Positions 10,923-60,096 of a stretch of 64,000 nucleotides of DNA are shown piece after piece. Below the pieces are notes generated by a model that made no database searches, had not been told where the DNA came from, and saw only the letters and a program-made list of their open reading frames with translations. The position numbers were made by a program, and so were the translations under genes. The DNA is taken from NCBI GenBank assembly GCA_945870425.1, contig CAMBSD010000001.1, positions 186,001-250,000 of the forward strand, in the 5' to 3' direction. Within the stretch, counting starts at the first letter, position 1. The number at the start of each line of letters is the position of its first letter. Source of the DNA: Chitinophaga pinensis. GTDB taxonomy: Bacteria > Bacteroidota > Bacteroidia > UKL13-3.

Positions 10923-10950
10923 GCTGTCGGGAGTTACCTCCCGACAGCAT
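10921..10950. repeat. REP-like palindrome, family A (perfect 13-bp stem)
   Basis: ATGCTGTCGGGAG at 10921-10933 faces its exact complement at 10938-10950, with loop TTAC. The same core TGTCGGGAG/CTCCCGACA occurs beside the transposase gene at 30806-30854 and 31421-31448 and, with one change, at 60075-60096. It lies between the stop of the 1460-residue gene and a doubtful small ORF. No T-run follows on the minus strand, so it is more likely a dispersed repeat than a simple terminator. Confidence 0.9.
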
Positions 10951-28153: not shown

Positions 28154-30139
28154 TTGATTATTTTATTACATTTTTATCCAAATTTTAAAAAAATAAAAAG
28201 GACATGGAAAATTCTTTTTTCAGCGCTCTTTCTTATTTTATTAGGGGTATATGCCAAAGCCGATTCCATTGAAAACAAACCAATAAATATTGCTGATAAA
28301 TGTTCCATAATTTTTGATTTAGATACAACCTATACCCTCAATCCAATTATAAACTATGATGAAATTAAATGGAATAATCACCCATTCAAACTATTTAGTA
28401 TCCAAAGCCAGCAATATCAAAATGAATTTGTAATTAAGTATGAATTCACTCATCTCACAAATACGAATAGGACATATTTTCTTGAAGTAGATAATACGCT
28501 AATTGATAAAATTTACTTTTATCATTTTGCAGAAAACAAACTAATTAAAACAGACGAATCCGGGGATGAAATTCCATTCGTTAATAGAAAAACACCATTC
28601 AGAAATCCATTATTTGAGATACTTGTAAATGAAAAAGGTAAGCATACCATTCTGTTAAAAATAATGGCTGATGGCAGGCGACTTAATTTTCCAATACGCT
28701 TAATTGAAGTCAATTCATTTGTATCATACGCAGAAAAAAAAGACCTGCTATTCGGTCTATATCTAGGTATATTATTTTTATTGTGTTTTTTGAGCGTGTA
28801 TTTTGGATTCATTGTGAGTGATGCTGTATTCTACTTTTTTGCTTTATACATTGGTTTTTTATCTTTAAATCAATTTATCCTAAGTGGCATTTCATTTCAG
28901 TATTTCTGGCCAAGCCTAACTGAATGGTCTAATAAAAGTGGCCCTATTACCATTATTCTCGCCATCATATTCGGACTCATTTTTGCTAAGTCTTTTTTTA
29001 AAAATGAAGGTTACAATAAGTATGTTATTAACGGATTGAATATTTTTCTTGTTCTGAATATTGTCTTGCTAACCATGATGCTACAAAATGGTGAAGTTTT
29101 TAATGTTTCCATTCGAATCATGTATAATTTCATAATCATTTTTTACCTATCGCTTTGTATGCTGGGCATTTATTACATGTTTAAAAAAGTACAAATAACC
29201 AGGTTTTATATCCCAGGATTTTTGCTTGCAACAGGTATTATTTCATTCATGACATTTCTAACCAATAACAAAGAACCTGAATTCATATTTACCAATAACC
29301 TTGTTATTTTTTTGTTATTGTTTAAATGTATTATTTTATTCCTAGCACTCATAGATCGTTTCAGAATATTTAAAAAAGAAAAGGAGCTAGCACAATTACA
29401 ATTAATAAAAAAACTTGAAGAGGTTAATAAGCTCAAAGAAAATCTGAATGAGGAGCTGTCCACACAAATTGAGATTAAAACAAGGGAATTGGAAAAAAAA
29501 CAAACAGAGTTGTATTGGTCAATTTTGACAGGAGAAGAGCGGGAAAGAAAAAGAATTGCCAAGGAACTACACGATGGATTAGGAGCTCAGCTATCTGCAC
29601 TTAAACTGCACGTGCAGTCGGATGGGTGCGAGAAAATGCTCCTGACAGGTAAATCAAAAACACTTCACCATAATCTTATTAAACAAATTGATGAAGCATG
29701 TTTGGAAGTGCGTAACATTTCACATGACCTATTGCCCCCCGGATTAATCAATGCAGGAATTACGGAAAGTATCAATCGCTTCCTCCATAAAATAAAAGAG
29801 AATTCAAATATTGATTTAAAATTCATTCATCAAATTGAAAAGGAAACTTTGACGAAGGATTTAGAGGTACAGATTTTTAGAATTATTCAAGAACTAGTAA
29901 ACAATATCATAAAACATTCGCATGCTCAATCAGCGGCCATTCAAATAATTCAAAATCACTCAAAAATACTAATCATTGCAGAAGATGATGGAATTGGATT
30001 TGATATGGAAACAAATCAAAATGGCTTAGGAATCAACAATATTAATAACAGAATAGCCTCATTAAATGGGAGTATTGTTATTAATTCATTAGAGAACAAA
30101 GGCACCACTGTCATAATTGAAATTACTTTACCAGAATGA
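28154..30139 (+). CDS. 7TMR-DISM sensor histidine kinase (NarL-pathway type)
   Basis: This 661-residue protein has an N-terminal export segment, an extracellular 7TMR-DISMED2-like beta domain (about 40-190), seven hydrophobic helices (about 195-405), a coiled coil, and a HisKA_3 dimerisation domain with the phospho-histidine in KRIAKELHDGLGAQLSALKL. A HATPase follows (QELVNNIIKHSHA, EDDGIGFD, GLGINNINNRI). It should sense an extracellular ligand, perhaps carbohydrate, and signal to the regulator that overlaps its 3' end. There is no in-frame ATG near the start. The TTG at 28154 is the best candidate, but an uncommon start further down is possible. It is divergent from the T9SS operon, which it may control. 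Confidence 0.9.
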   Translation: MIILLHFYPNFKKIKRTWKILFSALFLILLGVYAKADSIENKPINIADKCSIIFDLDTTYTLNPIINYDEIKWNNHPFKLFSIQSQQYQNEFVIKYEFTHLTNTNRTYFLEVDNTLIDKIYFYHFAENKLIKTDESGDEIPFVNRKTPFRNPLFEILVNEKGKHTILLKIMADGRRLNFPIRLIEVNSFVSYAEKKDLLFGLYLGILFLLCFLSVYFGFIVSDAVFYFFALYIGFLSLNQFILSGISFQYFWPSLTEWSNKSGPITIILAIIFGLIFAKSFFKNEGYNKYVINGLNIFLVLNIVLLTMMLQNGEVFNVSIRIMYNFIIIFYLSLCMLGIYYMFKKVQITRFYIPGFLLATGIISFMTFLTNNKEPEFIFTNNLVIFLLLFKCIILFLALIDRFRIFKKEKELAQLQLIKKLEEVNKLKENLNEELSTQIEIKTRELEKKQTELYWSILTGEERERKRIAKELHDGLGAQLSALKLHVQSDGCEKMLLTGKSKTLHHNLIKQIDEACLEVRNISHDLLPPGLINAGITESINRFLHKIKENSNIDLKFIHQIEKETLTKDLEVQIFRIIQELVNNIIKHSHAQSAAIQIIQNHSKILIIAEDDGIGFDMETNQNGLGINNINNRIASLNGSIVINSLENKGTTVIIEITLPE

Positions 30140-30783
30140 ATGAACCTAAGAAAATCCTAATTGCAGATGACCACAAAATATTCTTAGATGGTCTAAACTT
30201 AATTTTAAATGAAATCAATCATATAAAAATTGTTGCGCAAGCTTCAAATGGAAAGGAAGCGGTTGAAGCATTCAAAAATATTGAAATAGATATTGCCATA
30301 ATTGACTTAAACATGAATGACTTTAGTGGCATAGATTTGATATCTGCCTTGAAATCTATTCAACCAAAATGTAAAATAATTGTATTATCTATGGTAGATG
30401 ATTCATCTATAATTAAATCGCTATTGAACAACTACATTGATGCATATGTAATTAAATATGGTGGCAAACAGGAATTACTCGAGGCATTACATTCTATCGA
30501 TCAAGGTATCCCATACATTTCACCATCAATAAACTTAAATCAATTAGAAACAGAAAAAAAACAATCCTTAAACAATGGAAATATTTGGATTGAAAAACTA
30601 ACAAAAAGAGAGATTGAAATAATCAAACTTATCGCACTTCAGATGAATAGTTCACAAATTTCTGAAAAACTATTTCTAAGCTATTATACTGTAAAAACAC
30701 ATCGAAAGAATATTCTACAAAAACTTGAGTTAAAAAACACTGCAGGACTAATTGAATTCGCCAATAAGAATAATTTACTGTAA
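30136..30783 (+). CDS. NarL/FixJ-family response regulator
   Basis: The 215-residue protein combines a receiver domain (1-120; acidic DDH at 11-13, phospho-acceptor D57 in AIIDLNMND) with a LuxR-type helix-turn-helix (LTKREIEIIKLIA through YYTVKTHRKNILQKL). Its ATG overlaps the kinase stop by four bases (ATGA), so the pair is translationally coupled. The last 42 bases of the gene and the following sequence are duplicated at 32016-32077, beyond the transposase and a lipoprotein gene. Likely targets are genes for surface or secreted functions, but no binding site can be shown. Confidence 0.95.
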   Translation: MNEPKKILIADDHKIFLDGLNLILNEINHIKIVAQASNGKEAVEAFKNIEIDIAIIDLNMNDFSGIDLISALKSIQPKCKIIVLSMVDDSSIIKSLLNNYIDAYVIKYGGKQELLEALHSIDQGIPYISPSINLNQLETEKKQSLNNGNIWIEKLTKREIEIIKLIALQMNSSQISEKLFLSYYTVKTHRKNILQKLELKNTAGLIEFANKNNLL

Positions 30784-30805: not shown

Positions 30806-30854
30806 TGTGTTGTCGGGAGTTTCCGTGCTGTCGGGAGTTTCCTCCCGACAGCAC
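30806..30854. repeat. REP-like palindrome, family A: half copy plus full hairpin
   Basis: A left arm only (TGTGTTGTCGGGAGTTTCC, 30806-30824) is followed by a full hairpin. GTGCTGTCGGGAG at 30825-30837 faces its exact complement at 30842-30854 with loop TTTC. It ends four bases from the stop codon of the RAYT gene. The same half-plus-full layout is seen in family B at 46985-47030. Confidence 0.9.
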
Positions 30855-30857
30855 AAA

Positions 30858-31403
30858 TCAAACGTAATCCAAATAATGTTTAACTTCAATTTTATTTTGA
30901 ATGCCTTTTTCATAAAACAAGGCACTGCTATAAAAATAATCTTCGATGTTAATGCTTAACTTCCAGTGCGGCTGTAGTGGATTGTTATGGATATAATTTA
31001 ATTTTATTTCAAATAATTCTCTATTTTCTAAAAATACCTCATCAAATCTATCTTGCCATACCTTAAACACTTGACCATTCTGATTTATCCTAATTTTTCC
31101 TAATAATTCAATATCGGCTTTCTCAATTTCTTGTCTAACTTTTGTTGAAGTAAATTTTTTAAAATCCCTCATAAAGTCAATTCGTTTATTTGCTTCTTTG
31201 AAATAAATAATAAAATGAATATGGTTTGGCATTAATACATAAGCAAGAATATCTGAATCATGTTTTTTTGAGCAAAACACCAAGCTATCAGCAACAATTT
31301 CCATAGCTTGTCCTGCAATAAGCAAGTGATACCACTTATAACATGTGGTGGTTATAAAAAAAATATTTTTATCATTATAATGTTGCCTGTTTCTTAATCC
31401 CAT
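30858..31403 (-). CDS. REP-associated tyrosine transposase (RAYT, Y1/HUH family)
   Basis: This 181-residue single-strand nuclease-like protein has the Y1_Tnp features: an N-terminal strand IFFITTTCYKW, the HUH metal site MPNHIHFII (H61, H63), and the C-terminal LNYIHNNPLQPHWK motif common to the Bacteroidota group. The position where the catalytic tyrosine is expected (DFKKYT in many relatives) reads DFKKFT, so it may use another tyrosine or be inactive. It is closely framed by palindromes at 30806-30854 and 31421-31448 in the way RAYTs are framed by their REP targets. A broken second homologue is at 47132-47385. There is no other transposase gene or cargo. Confidence 0.85.
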   Translation of the reverse strand: MGLRNRQHYNDKNIFFITTTCYKWYHLLIAGQAMEIVADSLVFCSKKHDSDILAYVLMPNHIHFIIYFKEANKRIDFMRDFKKFTSTKVRQEIEKADIELLGKIRINQNGQVFKVWQDRFDEVFLENRELFEIKLNYIHNNPLQPHWKLSINIEDYFYSSALFYEKGIQNKIEVKHYLDYV

Positions 31404-31420
31404 TTTTATTTCAGATTATA

Positions 31421-31448
31421 GTGTCGGTAGAAAACTCCCGACAACACA
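31421..31448. repeat. REP-like palindrome, family A, upstream of RAYT
   Basis: TGTCGGTAG at 31422-31430 faces CTCCCGACA at 31435-31443 with one mismatch and loop AAAA. It is the left-hand partner of the palindromes at 30806-30854, so the RAYT gene lies between two members of the family. Confidence 0.85.
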
Positions 31449-32230: not shown

Positions 32231-33457
32231 TTATGATTTTTTGCCAATTACTTTTGCTATTCTATTCATAGAATCATTACTTACATGGCATTTCTTCGCA
32301 TATACTTTCCAATTATAAACAACAGCTTGCACTTGATCAATTATATTACTGGCATTTTTTATGTTGAAATAATTGGCTAATTCCAATAGGTGTTCTTTTG
32401 TTGGTTTGGCACTCTCACCGCTTACCATCGTGCTGTGCATGCCATGTCCTGAACTTGAAAATGTTAAGTCGTATGCTGGAGCAACTTTCCAATTTCCATT
32501 TTCATCCATTAAAAAGGAAATGTTTTTACTGTGGTCATCTCTATTGTGTGCAAAAACATTAAATGCCGCTAAACGCAATATTTTTTCATACGCACGAACA
32601 TCACGTTCAAGTCTGAAAGCACAATCCATGATATTTCCATAGTCTAAATTGCTTAATCTGAAATCATCATGCATCATACCAGCAGCTGAATGCATGTGCA
32701 AACGATTATTACCTATTCTATCAAAACGTTTTGTGCCAAAATATACTTGACCAGATTTACCTTTAAAAAGTTTACTCTCACTCATTTCAATTCCCGCGTC
32801 TAGTGCCATTTGATAATAAGCATATTCAATATTTGAAATATCTGGCCTATCAGCAGATGAAGGAAATTTAATAAGCCAATGCTCATAATCAGGTGGCAAC
32901 TCTTTTTTAGAGACCATTATTTGTTCTGTTTTAGGGTTGTAGCCCACTAATATTTTGGGTCGAGCTCCACCTGAAGATCCACCTAATATATACAATTCAT
33001 CAAGAATTTCTGTAGCTGTTCCAGTAAGAATTTGATGTGCCGCTATGGCTATATCATCTAGTTCAAACTTAAATAGCTTATCTATTTTATAGGCTGATTC
33101 AGGTTTGTAAATTAATGCACCCACACCATTACTTCCCACAAAAGCCAATCGGTCAAGCATGGTTATATTACTCATATCAATTCCTTTTGCTGTTAATGCC
33201 CTATCTAATAATAATCTTCCCCAACCATCTGGCAAAGAATCAGCAAATACGCCAAATAATCCATCAAATGGAAAGGCATCTGCGCTATTTATTTCCTTAT
33301 TGAGTTTTAATTTCAGTGGAGATATTTCAATTCCTTGACTGATAAAATCACTATAATATTTAAAATATATATCCCGCTTATCAATTACCAATTCACCTAC
33401 CTCAATTTCAATTTTGTTGAATGTAATTGATACAATTAATTTTTTAATGGATTCCAT
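32231..33457 (-). CDS. hipA: HipA-family serine/threonine kinase toxin
   Basis: The 408-residue protein has the HipA N-subdomain 1 (DGLFGVFADSLPDGWGRLLLDR), a glycine-rich loop (GGSSGGARPK, about 159-168), the catalytic loop HNRDDHSKN (304-312, catalytic D308) and the metal-binding DLT (D330). In characterised systems HipA phosphorylates aminoacyl-tRNA synthetases and induces dormancy. The two domains that are split into HipS and HipT in some relatives are here in one chain, so it is the full-length type. The antitoxin gene lies two bases upstream, in the order hipB then hipA. The kinase motifs are intact, so the toxin should be active. Confidence 0.94.
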   Translation of the reverse strand: MESIKKLIVSITFNKIEIEVGELVIDKRDIYFKYYSDFISQGIEISPLKLKLNKEINSADAFPFDGLFGVFADSLPDGWGRLLLDRALTAKGIDMSNITMLDRLAFVGSNGVGALIYKPESAYKIDKLFKFELDDIAIAAHQILTGTATEILDELYILGGSSGGARPKILVGYNPKTEQIMVSKKELPPDYEHWLIKFPSSADRPDISNIEYAYYQMALDAGIEMSESKLFKGKSGQVYFGTKRFDRIGNNRLHMHSAAGMMHDDFRLSNLDYGNIMDCAFRLERDVRAYEKILRLAAFNVFAHNRDDHSKNISFLMDENGNWKVAPAYDLTFSSSGHGMHSTMVSGESAKPTKEHLLELANYFNIKNASNIIDQVQAVVYNWKVYAKKCHVSNDSMNRIAKVIGKKS

Positions 33458-33459
33458 TT

Positions 33460-33750
33460 TTAAATTTTGGTCCTTTCGCTAAACAACTTATCAATATCCT
33501 TTAATGTATTATTTGGGTTTAATATCAAATCAAAATCATGGATGCGATTTAGTATTTGAGATAACTTTACCAAAGATTCTAAGGCAATTTGCCCTGTAAG
33601 TTCAAATCGTTTAATGCTTCCTAAAGATACACCAGAACGTTTGGCCAATTCACTTTGAGTTAATCCTGCCTGCTTTCGCAGCACTTTGTGTTTTTGTGCC
33701 AATTCCTTTATCATTTCAATAGGAATTTTTTCTGTACCGAACTTTGTCAT
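33460..33750 (-). CDS. hipB: HipB-type antitoxin (XRE family)
   Basis: The small protein has an XRE helix-turn-helix (LRKQAGLTQSELAKRSGVSLGSIKRFE) and a short C-terminal tail. I use the ATG at 33750 (MTKFGTEK) rather than an upstream TTG at 33759, because the TTG would sit inside a candidate operator. It is expected to bind HipA, block its kinase activity and repress its own promoter. The stop lies two bases before the hipA ATG, giving tight coupling. Confidence 0.9.
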   Translation of the reverse strand: MTKFGTEKIPIEMIKELAQKHKVLRKQAGLTQSELAKRSGVSLGSIKRFELTGQIALESLVKLSQILNRIHDFDLILNPNNTLKDIDKLFSERTKI

Positions 33751-33816
33751 ATTAGCCAATATATGATACGAAAATATGGTATTATAGCTAAAATAGCTAA
33801 TATTTTGGCTATTTAA
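33749..33816. promoter_or_regulatory. Candidate hipBA operator/promoter
   Basis: Several inverted copies of a TAGCTA/TTGGCTA half-site lie just upstream of hipB: ATATT-AGCC-AATAT at 33750-33763, then TATAGCTA, AATAGCTA and TTTTGGCTAT between 33783 and 33812. Clusters of repeated half-sites beside the antitoxin start are typical of HipB operators. The match is to a repeated pattern only, since the binding site of this HipB is unknown. Confidence 0.5.
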
Positions 33817-33830
33817 TATCCGCTTTAATG

Positions 33831-34250
33831 GTTAATTTTATCAATACCTTAAATAATTGGGGTATTGTTTGACGGCATGCCTATTGAAAAACTATTCCTT
33901 TTCCTAAATTCTTTGGGCAAATTCGTGTACTATCATTTTCAATTTTTACCTTTAAATGTTTGATCACTTTTGTTTGATGAATAATACAGGTATAATCTAA
34001 TATTTTATAACTTCCAATCCCACTCATTATATTGGCTAAGCAATCATAAAATATAATGCATTTAGTGTATTATAGGCAGACCTATTTAATCGATTCTTTT
34101 AACTTTTATCTTGTCAGGTATTTTCACCTAACAATTATCTATCAGGAAGTAATTCCCGCCTAAACCTTACCTGCTAATTATATGGTTGGAGATGCTAAGC
34201 AAAACAACAACCATAGGCAATGCTGCTATTTTTCATATTGTTTAGATTTT
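33831..34250. other. Intergenic region with composite repeats, no gene
   Basis: No coding frame is convincing here. Two repeat elements are visible: a B/A composite (TGTCAGGT-ATTTTC-ACCTAACA at 34112-34133, followed by ATCAGGAAGTAATTCCCGCC) and a family C element at 34183-34220 (TGGTTGGAG...CAACCATAGGCAA). The latter matches 47412-47449 at about 30 of 38 positions. Confidence 0.75.
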
Positions 34251-46984: not shown

Positions 46985-47030
46985 GTGATGTCAGGTGTTT
47001 TTGTGATGTCAGGTGTTTCCACCTGACATT
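46985..47030. repeat. REP-like palindrome, family B: half copy plus full hairpin
   Basis: A left arm alone (TGATGTCAGGTGTTTTT, about 46985-47002) precedes a full hairpin. TGTCAGGTG at 47007-47015 faces its complement CACCTGACA at 47020-47028 with loop TTTC. Relative to family A (TGTCGGGAG/CTCCCGACA), two stem positions differ, and in each case both strands changed together. Confidence 0.88.
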
Positions 47031-47131
47031 TGTATTTATCCGTGGTTGGTGTCCTCCCAATCCACTTTCTTATTTCAAATAAAATCATTAAAGTGAATAA
47101 CAAAGTCAAACTCTGAATCTAAACAAACATA

Positions 47132-47385
47132 TTACTTAGCCGATGAAAATTGATATTCTTCTGGCAAAGATACTAGCTTCCATTTTACTTGCACTGGGTT
47201 ATTATGAATATAATTCAATTTTTTAATAGTAATTTCTTTACTTTTTATTTTAATTGTTCTTGCTCTTCTTTCCCAGAAATGATAAGCCCTGTCGTTTTGG
47301 GTTGAAATGTAGTTTTTCAATAATTCACTATTTTTTGATAGAAGGTATTTTTTGAACGCATGTCCAGTAAACTTGCCTGCGTTCA
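47132..47385 (-). pseudogene. Truncated RAYT transposase fragment
   Basis: From about 47385 the minus strand encodes NAGKFTGHAFKKYLLSKNSE, then AYHFWERRARTI and LNYIHNNPVQVKWK, ending EEYQFSSAK. This is the C-terminal half of a RAYT/Y1-type transposase, related to but different from the one at 30858. The HUH half is missing and is replaced upstream by stop codons and a family C palindrome (47394-47420). A family C arm (GGTTGGTG, 47044-47051) lies on the other side. No function is expected. Confidence 0.82.
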
Positions 47386-60074: not shown

Positions 60075-60096
60075 TGTCGGGAAGCAATTCCCGACA
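60075..60096. repeat. REP-like palindrome, family A, isolated copy
   Basis: TGTCGGGAA at 60075-60083 faces its complement TTCCCGACA at 60088-60096, with loop GCAA. It lies between the convergent M3 peptidase and adenine deaminase genes (60011-60151), which contain nothing else. Confidence 0.85.

Follow-up and report, generated by a model that had tools for sequence, protein, structure and literature searches.

A RAYT-type transposase gene of Chitinophaga pinensis and a probable cognate family of dispersed, GTGN-tagged REP hairpins

The stretch of DNA analyzed here, referred to below as the window, comprises 64,000 nucleotides of a Chitinophaga pinensis contig (CAMBSD010000001.1). On its reverse strand, at 30858..31403, lies an intact gene for a REP-associated tyrosine transposase (RAYT), a small transposase of the domesticated type with 181 amino acids. 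The protein carries the motifs NHIH (H61 and H63), WQDRFD (residues 116-121), YIHNNP (Tyr137) and YSSA, and the catalytic HUH-Y1 residues H61, H63 and Y137 are all in place. It scores 86.1 bits against the NCBIfam model NF047646 (REP_Tyr_transpos), above the cut-off of 80, and is matched by Pfam Y1_Tnp at 1e-7. The closest PDB fold to an AlphaFold2 model of the protein (pLDDT 88) is 4er8_A, the E. coli TnpA-REP protein with a REP hairpin, at an E-value of 2.4e-9. Together, sequence and model show the protein to be an intact RAYT of the HUH-Y1 type, the identity proposed in the initial annotation. A two-component pair, consisting of a 7TMR-DISM histidine kinase and a LuxR-type response regulator (28154-30783, forward strand), ends 27 bp before the first hairpin-derived sequence at 30811, and a helix-turn-helix gene precedes a HipA-like kinase gene (32231-33759, reverse strand; Pfam HipA_C), the two probably forming a HipBA toxin-antitoxin pair.

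Inverted hairpins frame the RAYT gene, each no more than 20 bp away, at the places where they were originally reported. The 3'-flanking hairpin, 30829..30850 on the forward strand, reads TGTCGGGAG-TTTC-CTCCCGACA and scores 42.9 bits (E 3e-9) against a covariance model founded on 19 copies, the E-values of which are rough and the founders of which match by construction. Its stem is a perfect 9 bp, or 13 bp counting the pairing of GTGC with GCAC, and folds as DNA at -17 kcal/mol (z -9.2). A tetranucleotide tag, GTGC at 30825-30828, is directed away from the gene. In tandem with this hairpin, direct reading of the sequence reveals a partial copy of 18 nt at 30811..30828 (forward strand; TGTCGGGAGTTTCCGTGC), consisting of a 5' arm, loop and tag. 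The 5'-flanking hairpin, 31422..31443 on the reverse strand, reads TGTCGGGAG-TTTT-CTACCGACA (40.1 bits, E 2.5e-8 on the same rough scale), forms eight of nine pairs, and is inverted relative to the 3' copy, with its tag, GTGT, likewise directed away from the gene. The RAYT gene sits inside an outward-tagged inverted hairpin pair. A promoter-like TTGTCG-18-TATAAT at 31415-31444 (reverse strand) lies upstream of the gene and overlaps the 5' hairpin; in this region, such matches are no more numerous than expected by chance.

An HUH-Y1 protein with hairpins on both sides invites comparison with insertion sequences of the IS200/IS605 type, which carry subterminal hairpins and share the same fold, and three copies of the RAYT occur in Ca. 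Amoebophilus (see below). We nevertheless consider such an identity most unlikely. The IS200 profile reaches only 27.2 bits against a cut-off of 55, the tyrosine motif is YIHNNP where IS200 has Y---Q, and the gene is single-copy in its own genome, other RAYTs being about 29-36% identical to it. Moreover, the hairpins on the two sides of the gene are inverted, not set in one orientation, and many hairpins occur solo.

Dispersed copies in the window had also been reported, and three of these stand well. The copy at 10925..10946 (forward strand; 37.6 bits) has the CGGGAG stem found at the RAYT gene, loop TTAC and tag ATGC, and its stem reaches 15 bp, with a fold z of -11. The one at 60075..60096 (reverse strand; 45.3 bits) has a CGGGAA stem, loop TTGC and tag GTGC, and the homologous locus of a congener (L238) is alignable and contains the hairpin. 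The third, at 46989..47028 (forward strand; 49.2 bits), has a CAGGTG stem, loop TTTC and tag GTGA, and comprises a full hairpin at 47007-47028 preceded by a partial copy at 46989-47006, the same layout as at 30811-30850; it too is homologous in the congener (G001, contig C90). The fourth reported copy is decayed: 34112..34161 (forward strand) is an inverted pair whose first member, 34112-34133, retains seven of nine pairs and folds weakly (-2.6 kcal/mol, z -2.2), and whose second is degenerate. The majority of stems in the window are strong, with DNA-fold z values of -4 to -11. In two stem subfamilies (30811-30828 and 46989-47006), the full hairpin is preceded by the same tandem duplicate of 18 nt, made up of tag, 5' arm and loop, an arrangement also seen at locus L018.

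The CAGGTG-type copy adjoins the remnant of a second, different RAYT (47126-47374, reverse strand), which is kin to the RAYT at G000 C6:90034 (L004). These hairpins were considered as the cognate of the remnant and rejected, as the hairpin of its L004 relative is GGTTGGTG-TCCT-CACCAACC. At about 47040-47075, a hairpin-like GGTTGGTG-TCCTC..CCAATCC represents what is left of the L004-type enzyme's own hairpin family.

A genome-wide census combined a pattern search with a covariance-model search. The pattern TGTCNGGN{4,34}CCNGACA returned 15 matches per strand, corresponding to 13 distinct hairpins, in the 2.96-Mb genome, while the reversed control pattern returned none from the same sequence; the covariance model returned 25 matches at a nominal E<1e-5. 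The hairpins are therefore in excess in the genome, as anticipated, and the family numbers about 25-30 hairpin relatives scattered between genes. The copies are oriented and share a common design: a 5' tag GTGN, a 9-bp stem starting TGTC[AG]GG, and a loop TTNC, of which TT is invariant in the founding alignment. The pattern search was blind to both tag and loop, yet 7 of its 13 palindromes have GTG 5' of a TTNC loop, against a background of about 1% (P 4e-11). Among 71 aligned matches, 51 have GTG-initial tags (GTGC in 24, GTGG in 12, GTGT in 10 and GTGA in 5), and hence the tag is GTGN rather than the canonical GT[AG]G, GTGG being a minority form. Inverted pairs with outward tags, the arrangement of a REPIN, occur at two loci of the genome (L014 and L022). 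The reading of the family as two subfamilies only did not survive the census, as the genome-wide model matches include no fewer than four stem types: CGGGAG (on both sides of the RAYT gene and at 10925), CGGGAA, CAGGTG and CGGGTG, plus CAGGAA. The RAYT gene's own type, CGGGAG, accounts for only about three copies, most dispersed copies having other stems.

The inference in the initial annotation that stem changes are compensated on both strands was borne out. Compensated changes are found at four of nine stem pairs within the genome and at six of nine across many genomes, where 68 distinct sequences gave 92 covarying cells against 30 expected in shuffles. This set was picked partly by pairing ability, and the percentage of paired positions is inflated because members were found partly through their ability to pair. 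Nevertheless, slid controls, together with a G.T step between the G-C and A-T states at one place homologous in the congener, argue from sequence comparison that the structural constraint is real. The hairpins flanking the RAYT gene are members of a dispersed, oriented and structurally constrained hairpin family.

Each of the 27 copies examined is intergenic. Convergent genes enclose 17 of them, more than the 25-30% that would roughly be expected (P 4e-4 or less). This distribution, together with a 3' side that is often A/T-rich, would suit bidirectional transcription terminators or mRNA-stabilizing structures bearing no relation to the transposase. We judge that explanation very unlikely. No terminator-like site (hairpin plus T run) was found at the RAYT flanks, Rfam has no match for the hairpins, and neither the conserved 5' GTGN tag and loop, nor the outward pairs, nor the association with one RAYT clade across phyla would be expected of terminators. 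Since an extragenic location is also usual for known REPs, a terminator-like side role is compatible with a RAYT-associated family.

The proteins nearest to the window RAYT, at 52-62% identity, belong to Ca. Amoebophilus sp. 36-38 (62%) and other Bacteroidota. Those at about 40-47% identity come from Ignavibacteria, Thermodesulfovibrionia, Planctomycetota (including Brocadia) and one 'Deltaproteobacteria' genome. In a tree of 97 proteins, the window RAYT falls in a clade of 26 members with support of 91/81. Hairpins of the class described above lie within about 100 bp of the gene, an arbitrary limit chosen after the data had been seen, in 16 of the 25 clade relatives compared to 2 of 55 other RAYTs (Fisher 9e-9). 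This comparison beyond the host genome provides the most telling evidence. Hairpins of the same design flank most of the nearer clade members. Where both flanks have 4-base loops, the tags point outward: the closest copy upstream shares the gene's strand, and its downstream counterpart is on the opposite one; at L100, the downstream stem is almost identical read either way. The flank tags in the clade are mostly GTGG upstream and GTGC downstream. Variants also occur, such as a subgroup with 3-base loops and an AACC tag (L108 and L111) and three loci in which the tag is displaced by one base (L104, L105 and L107). The covariance model found no match at eight more distant clade members (L120, L133, L136, L141, L148, L149, L173 and L175), although L141, L149 and L175 do have hairpins of related sequence. 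At the level of whole genomes, model matches occur in 10 of 14 having a clade RAYT and 1 of 13 having other RAYTs (P 0.001), a contrast due in part to the counting of flank copies. To illustrate the upper range, Ca. Amoebophilus sp. 36-38 has 80 hairpin matches and three RAYT copies. Outward-tagged REPIN pairs occur in Amoebophilus as well, one of them combining two stem types and one (L259) lying outside a repeat of ~200 bp that ends in inverted repeats GAGTTCTTGCATAACC. Most Amoebophilus copies that were read (among L259-L278) sit within that repeat, and were therefore multiplied by another, apparently separate mobile element. Non-clade RAYTs (L123, L139, L169, L118, L121, L132, L155 and L167) are flanked by other families of perfect hairpins of similar build, for instance GTTGTTGGTG-TCCT-CACCAACAAC and TTGCAGGTG-.., which suggests that in Bacteroidota each RAYT lineage has a cognate family of its own.

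Given the above, we consider it likely that the window holds a RAYT together with its cognate REP family: a 'REPtron', accompanied by REPs and REPINs dispersed in the genome, of a RAYT clade found in several phyla. The co-occurrence of hairpin and RAYT foreseen in the initial annotation holds across phyla but not within the host's own family. Among the 64 genomes of that family, hairpins occur in seven and a clade RAYT in the host only, and within the family alone the co-occurrence is not significant (P 0.11). Seven hairpin-bearing relatives, six within the family (G001, G004, G005, G009, G025 and G035) and one outside it (G018), have no detectable clade RAYT; a profile search of these genomes and of G020 returned none. 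As six of the seven hairpin-bearing family genomes are in this state, the hairpins can evidently outlive or lack the transposase. Most copies comparable with the congener are shared at homologous places, with 91-99% identity over the locus, and are therefore not recent. A comparison of hairpin loci and one concatenated DNA search revealed no clean empty sites in the congener, two differing sites being too diverged to show insertion.

These relatives lacking the RAYT, the shared and non-recent copies, and the mere three or so copies of the gene's own stem type make a late arrival into a pre-seeded genome a serious rival: the dispersed REPs would be the work of other RAYTs of the clade that have since been lost, and the present gene would be a recent horizontal arrival with its own few CGGGAG copies. 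Sequence and profile searches of family genomes yielded no close homolog of the gene (best 32% identity in the relatives searched by sequence), while its nearest relative, at 62%, is in Ca. Amoebophilus, and the other stem types are both common to the congener at homologous places and present in relatives without a clade RAYT. Against this, the tag, loop and TGTC[AG]GG core are common to all stem types, and these features, together with the Amoebophilus REPIN of mixed stems, imply that one enzyme may serve several stems. In addition, the congener assembly is 70% complete and contains no sequence matching the RAYT region, so that the congener may yet have a clade RAYT. We hold a late arrival to be possible, if somewhat less than probable.

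The expectation that such a system in Bacteroidota would be new holds only in part. Bacteroidetes-dominated RAYTs, designated TnpAY1 subclass 2.6 or RAYT group 5, were reported in 2018 to be flanked by 'atypical' structures with copies elsewhere (PMC6006769). By its motifs, the window RAYT fits this subclass: Table 1 of that report gives NH[LIV]H, WQ, YIH[QN]NP and SS, with a median length of 179 aa, and the window protein has NHIH, WQ, YIHNNP, YSSA and 181 aa. It is also like subclass 2.6 in having flanking structures with copies elsewhere in the genome. Those structures, however, were found by manual inspection and described as weaker, divergent from the consensus and without GT[AG]G, whereas here most stems pair perfectly over 9 bp (up to 18) and the tag is GTGN, and the present clade reaches Ignavibacteriota, Planctomycetota, Nitrospirota and Myxococcota. 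What is new relative to PMC6006769 is the strong stems and the GTGN tag; Bacteroidetes RAYTs flanked by structures with copies elsewhere were already known. A literature search with the hairpin letters returned nothing relevant.

With E. coli TnpA-REP and its REPs (subclass 2.2, 4ER8), the present system shares the HUH-Y1 fold and inverted flanking REPs with a 5' tetranucleotide, but the tag is GTGN in place of GTAG and the stem is perfect, without a bulge. Five E. coli residues have been named for recognition of the GTAG tag (PMC6006769). Three of them, which contact the guide, are aligned with identical residues here (W94 with W116, Q95 with Q117 and E100 with E122), while H101 and R104, listed with them, are replaced by V123 and E126, which would be in keeping with a different tag. 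In group 3 (subclass 2.5), the REPs of Stenotrophomonas and Marinomonas are likewise perfect palindromes (PMC8266576). Certain of their loop positions are essential, which compares with the invariant loop TT here, but their tag is GTAG, and the protein subclass and host phyla differ.

REPINs typically number in the hundreds in Pseudomonas, above the about 25-80 copies found here. As in the REPINs of PMC3116915, the unit is two inverted REPs and solo copies also occur; apart from copy number, the difference is that the two REPs of a pair here can differ in stem type.

By analogy with work on E. coli, Stenotrophomonas and Marinomonas (PMC8266576), from which binding, cleavage and movement are inferred, the enzyme would recognize the folded single strand via tag, stem and loop, and Tyr137 would cleave single-stranded DNA. 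Hairpin pairs might thereby be moved or duplicated as non-autonomous elements during replication. GTGN would then correspond in function to the GTAG of E. coli, and the stem would co-evolve with the protein. More tentatively, one hairpin grammar (GTGN, TGTC[AG]GG, TTNC) may have been kept across phyla while stems co-varied. With different tags at its two ends (GTGG mostly at the upstream one, GTGC mostly at the downstream one) and the RAYT gene where a REPIN has its spacer, the unit could then bridge solo REPs and insertion sequences whose left and right ends are distinct.

The recognition and spreading of REPs by RAYTs have been elucidated in proteobacterial systems with the GTAG tag. The present clade differs in its tag and in its guide-contact residues, has strong, simple hairpins and occurs in at least five phyla, and it offers natural enzyme-hairpin pairs for tests of tag and protein co-evolution. 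The covariance model permits annotation of such repeats in Bacteroidota, until now described by manual inspection only, and the gene-plus-hairpin pairing, which recurs in several other phyla, extends a kind of selfish repeat system that is known but has been poorly characterized.
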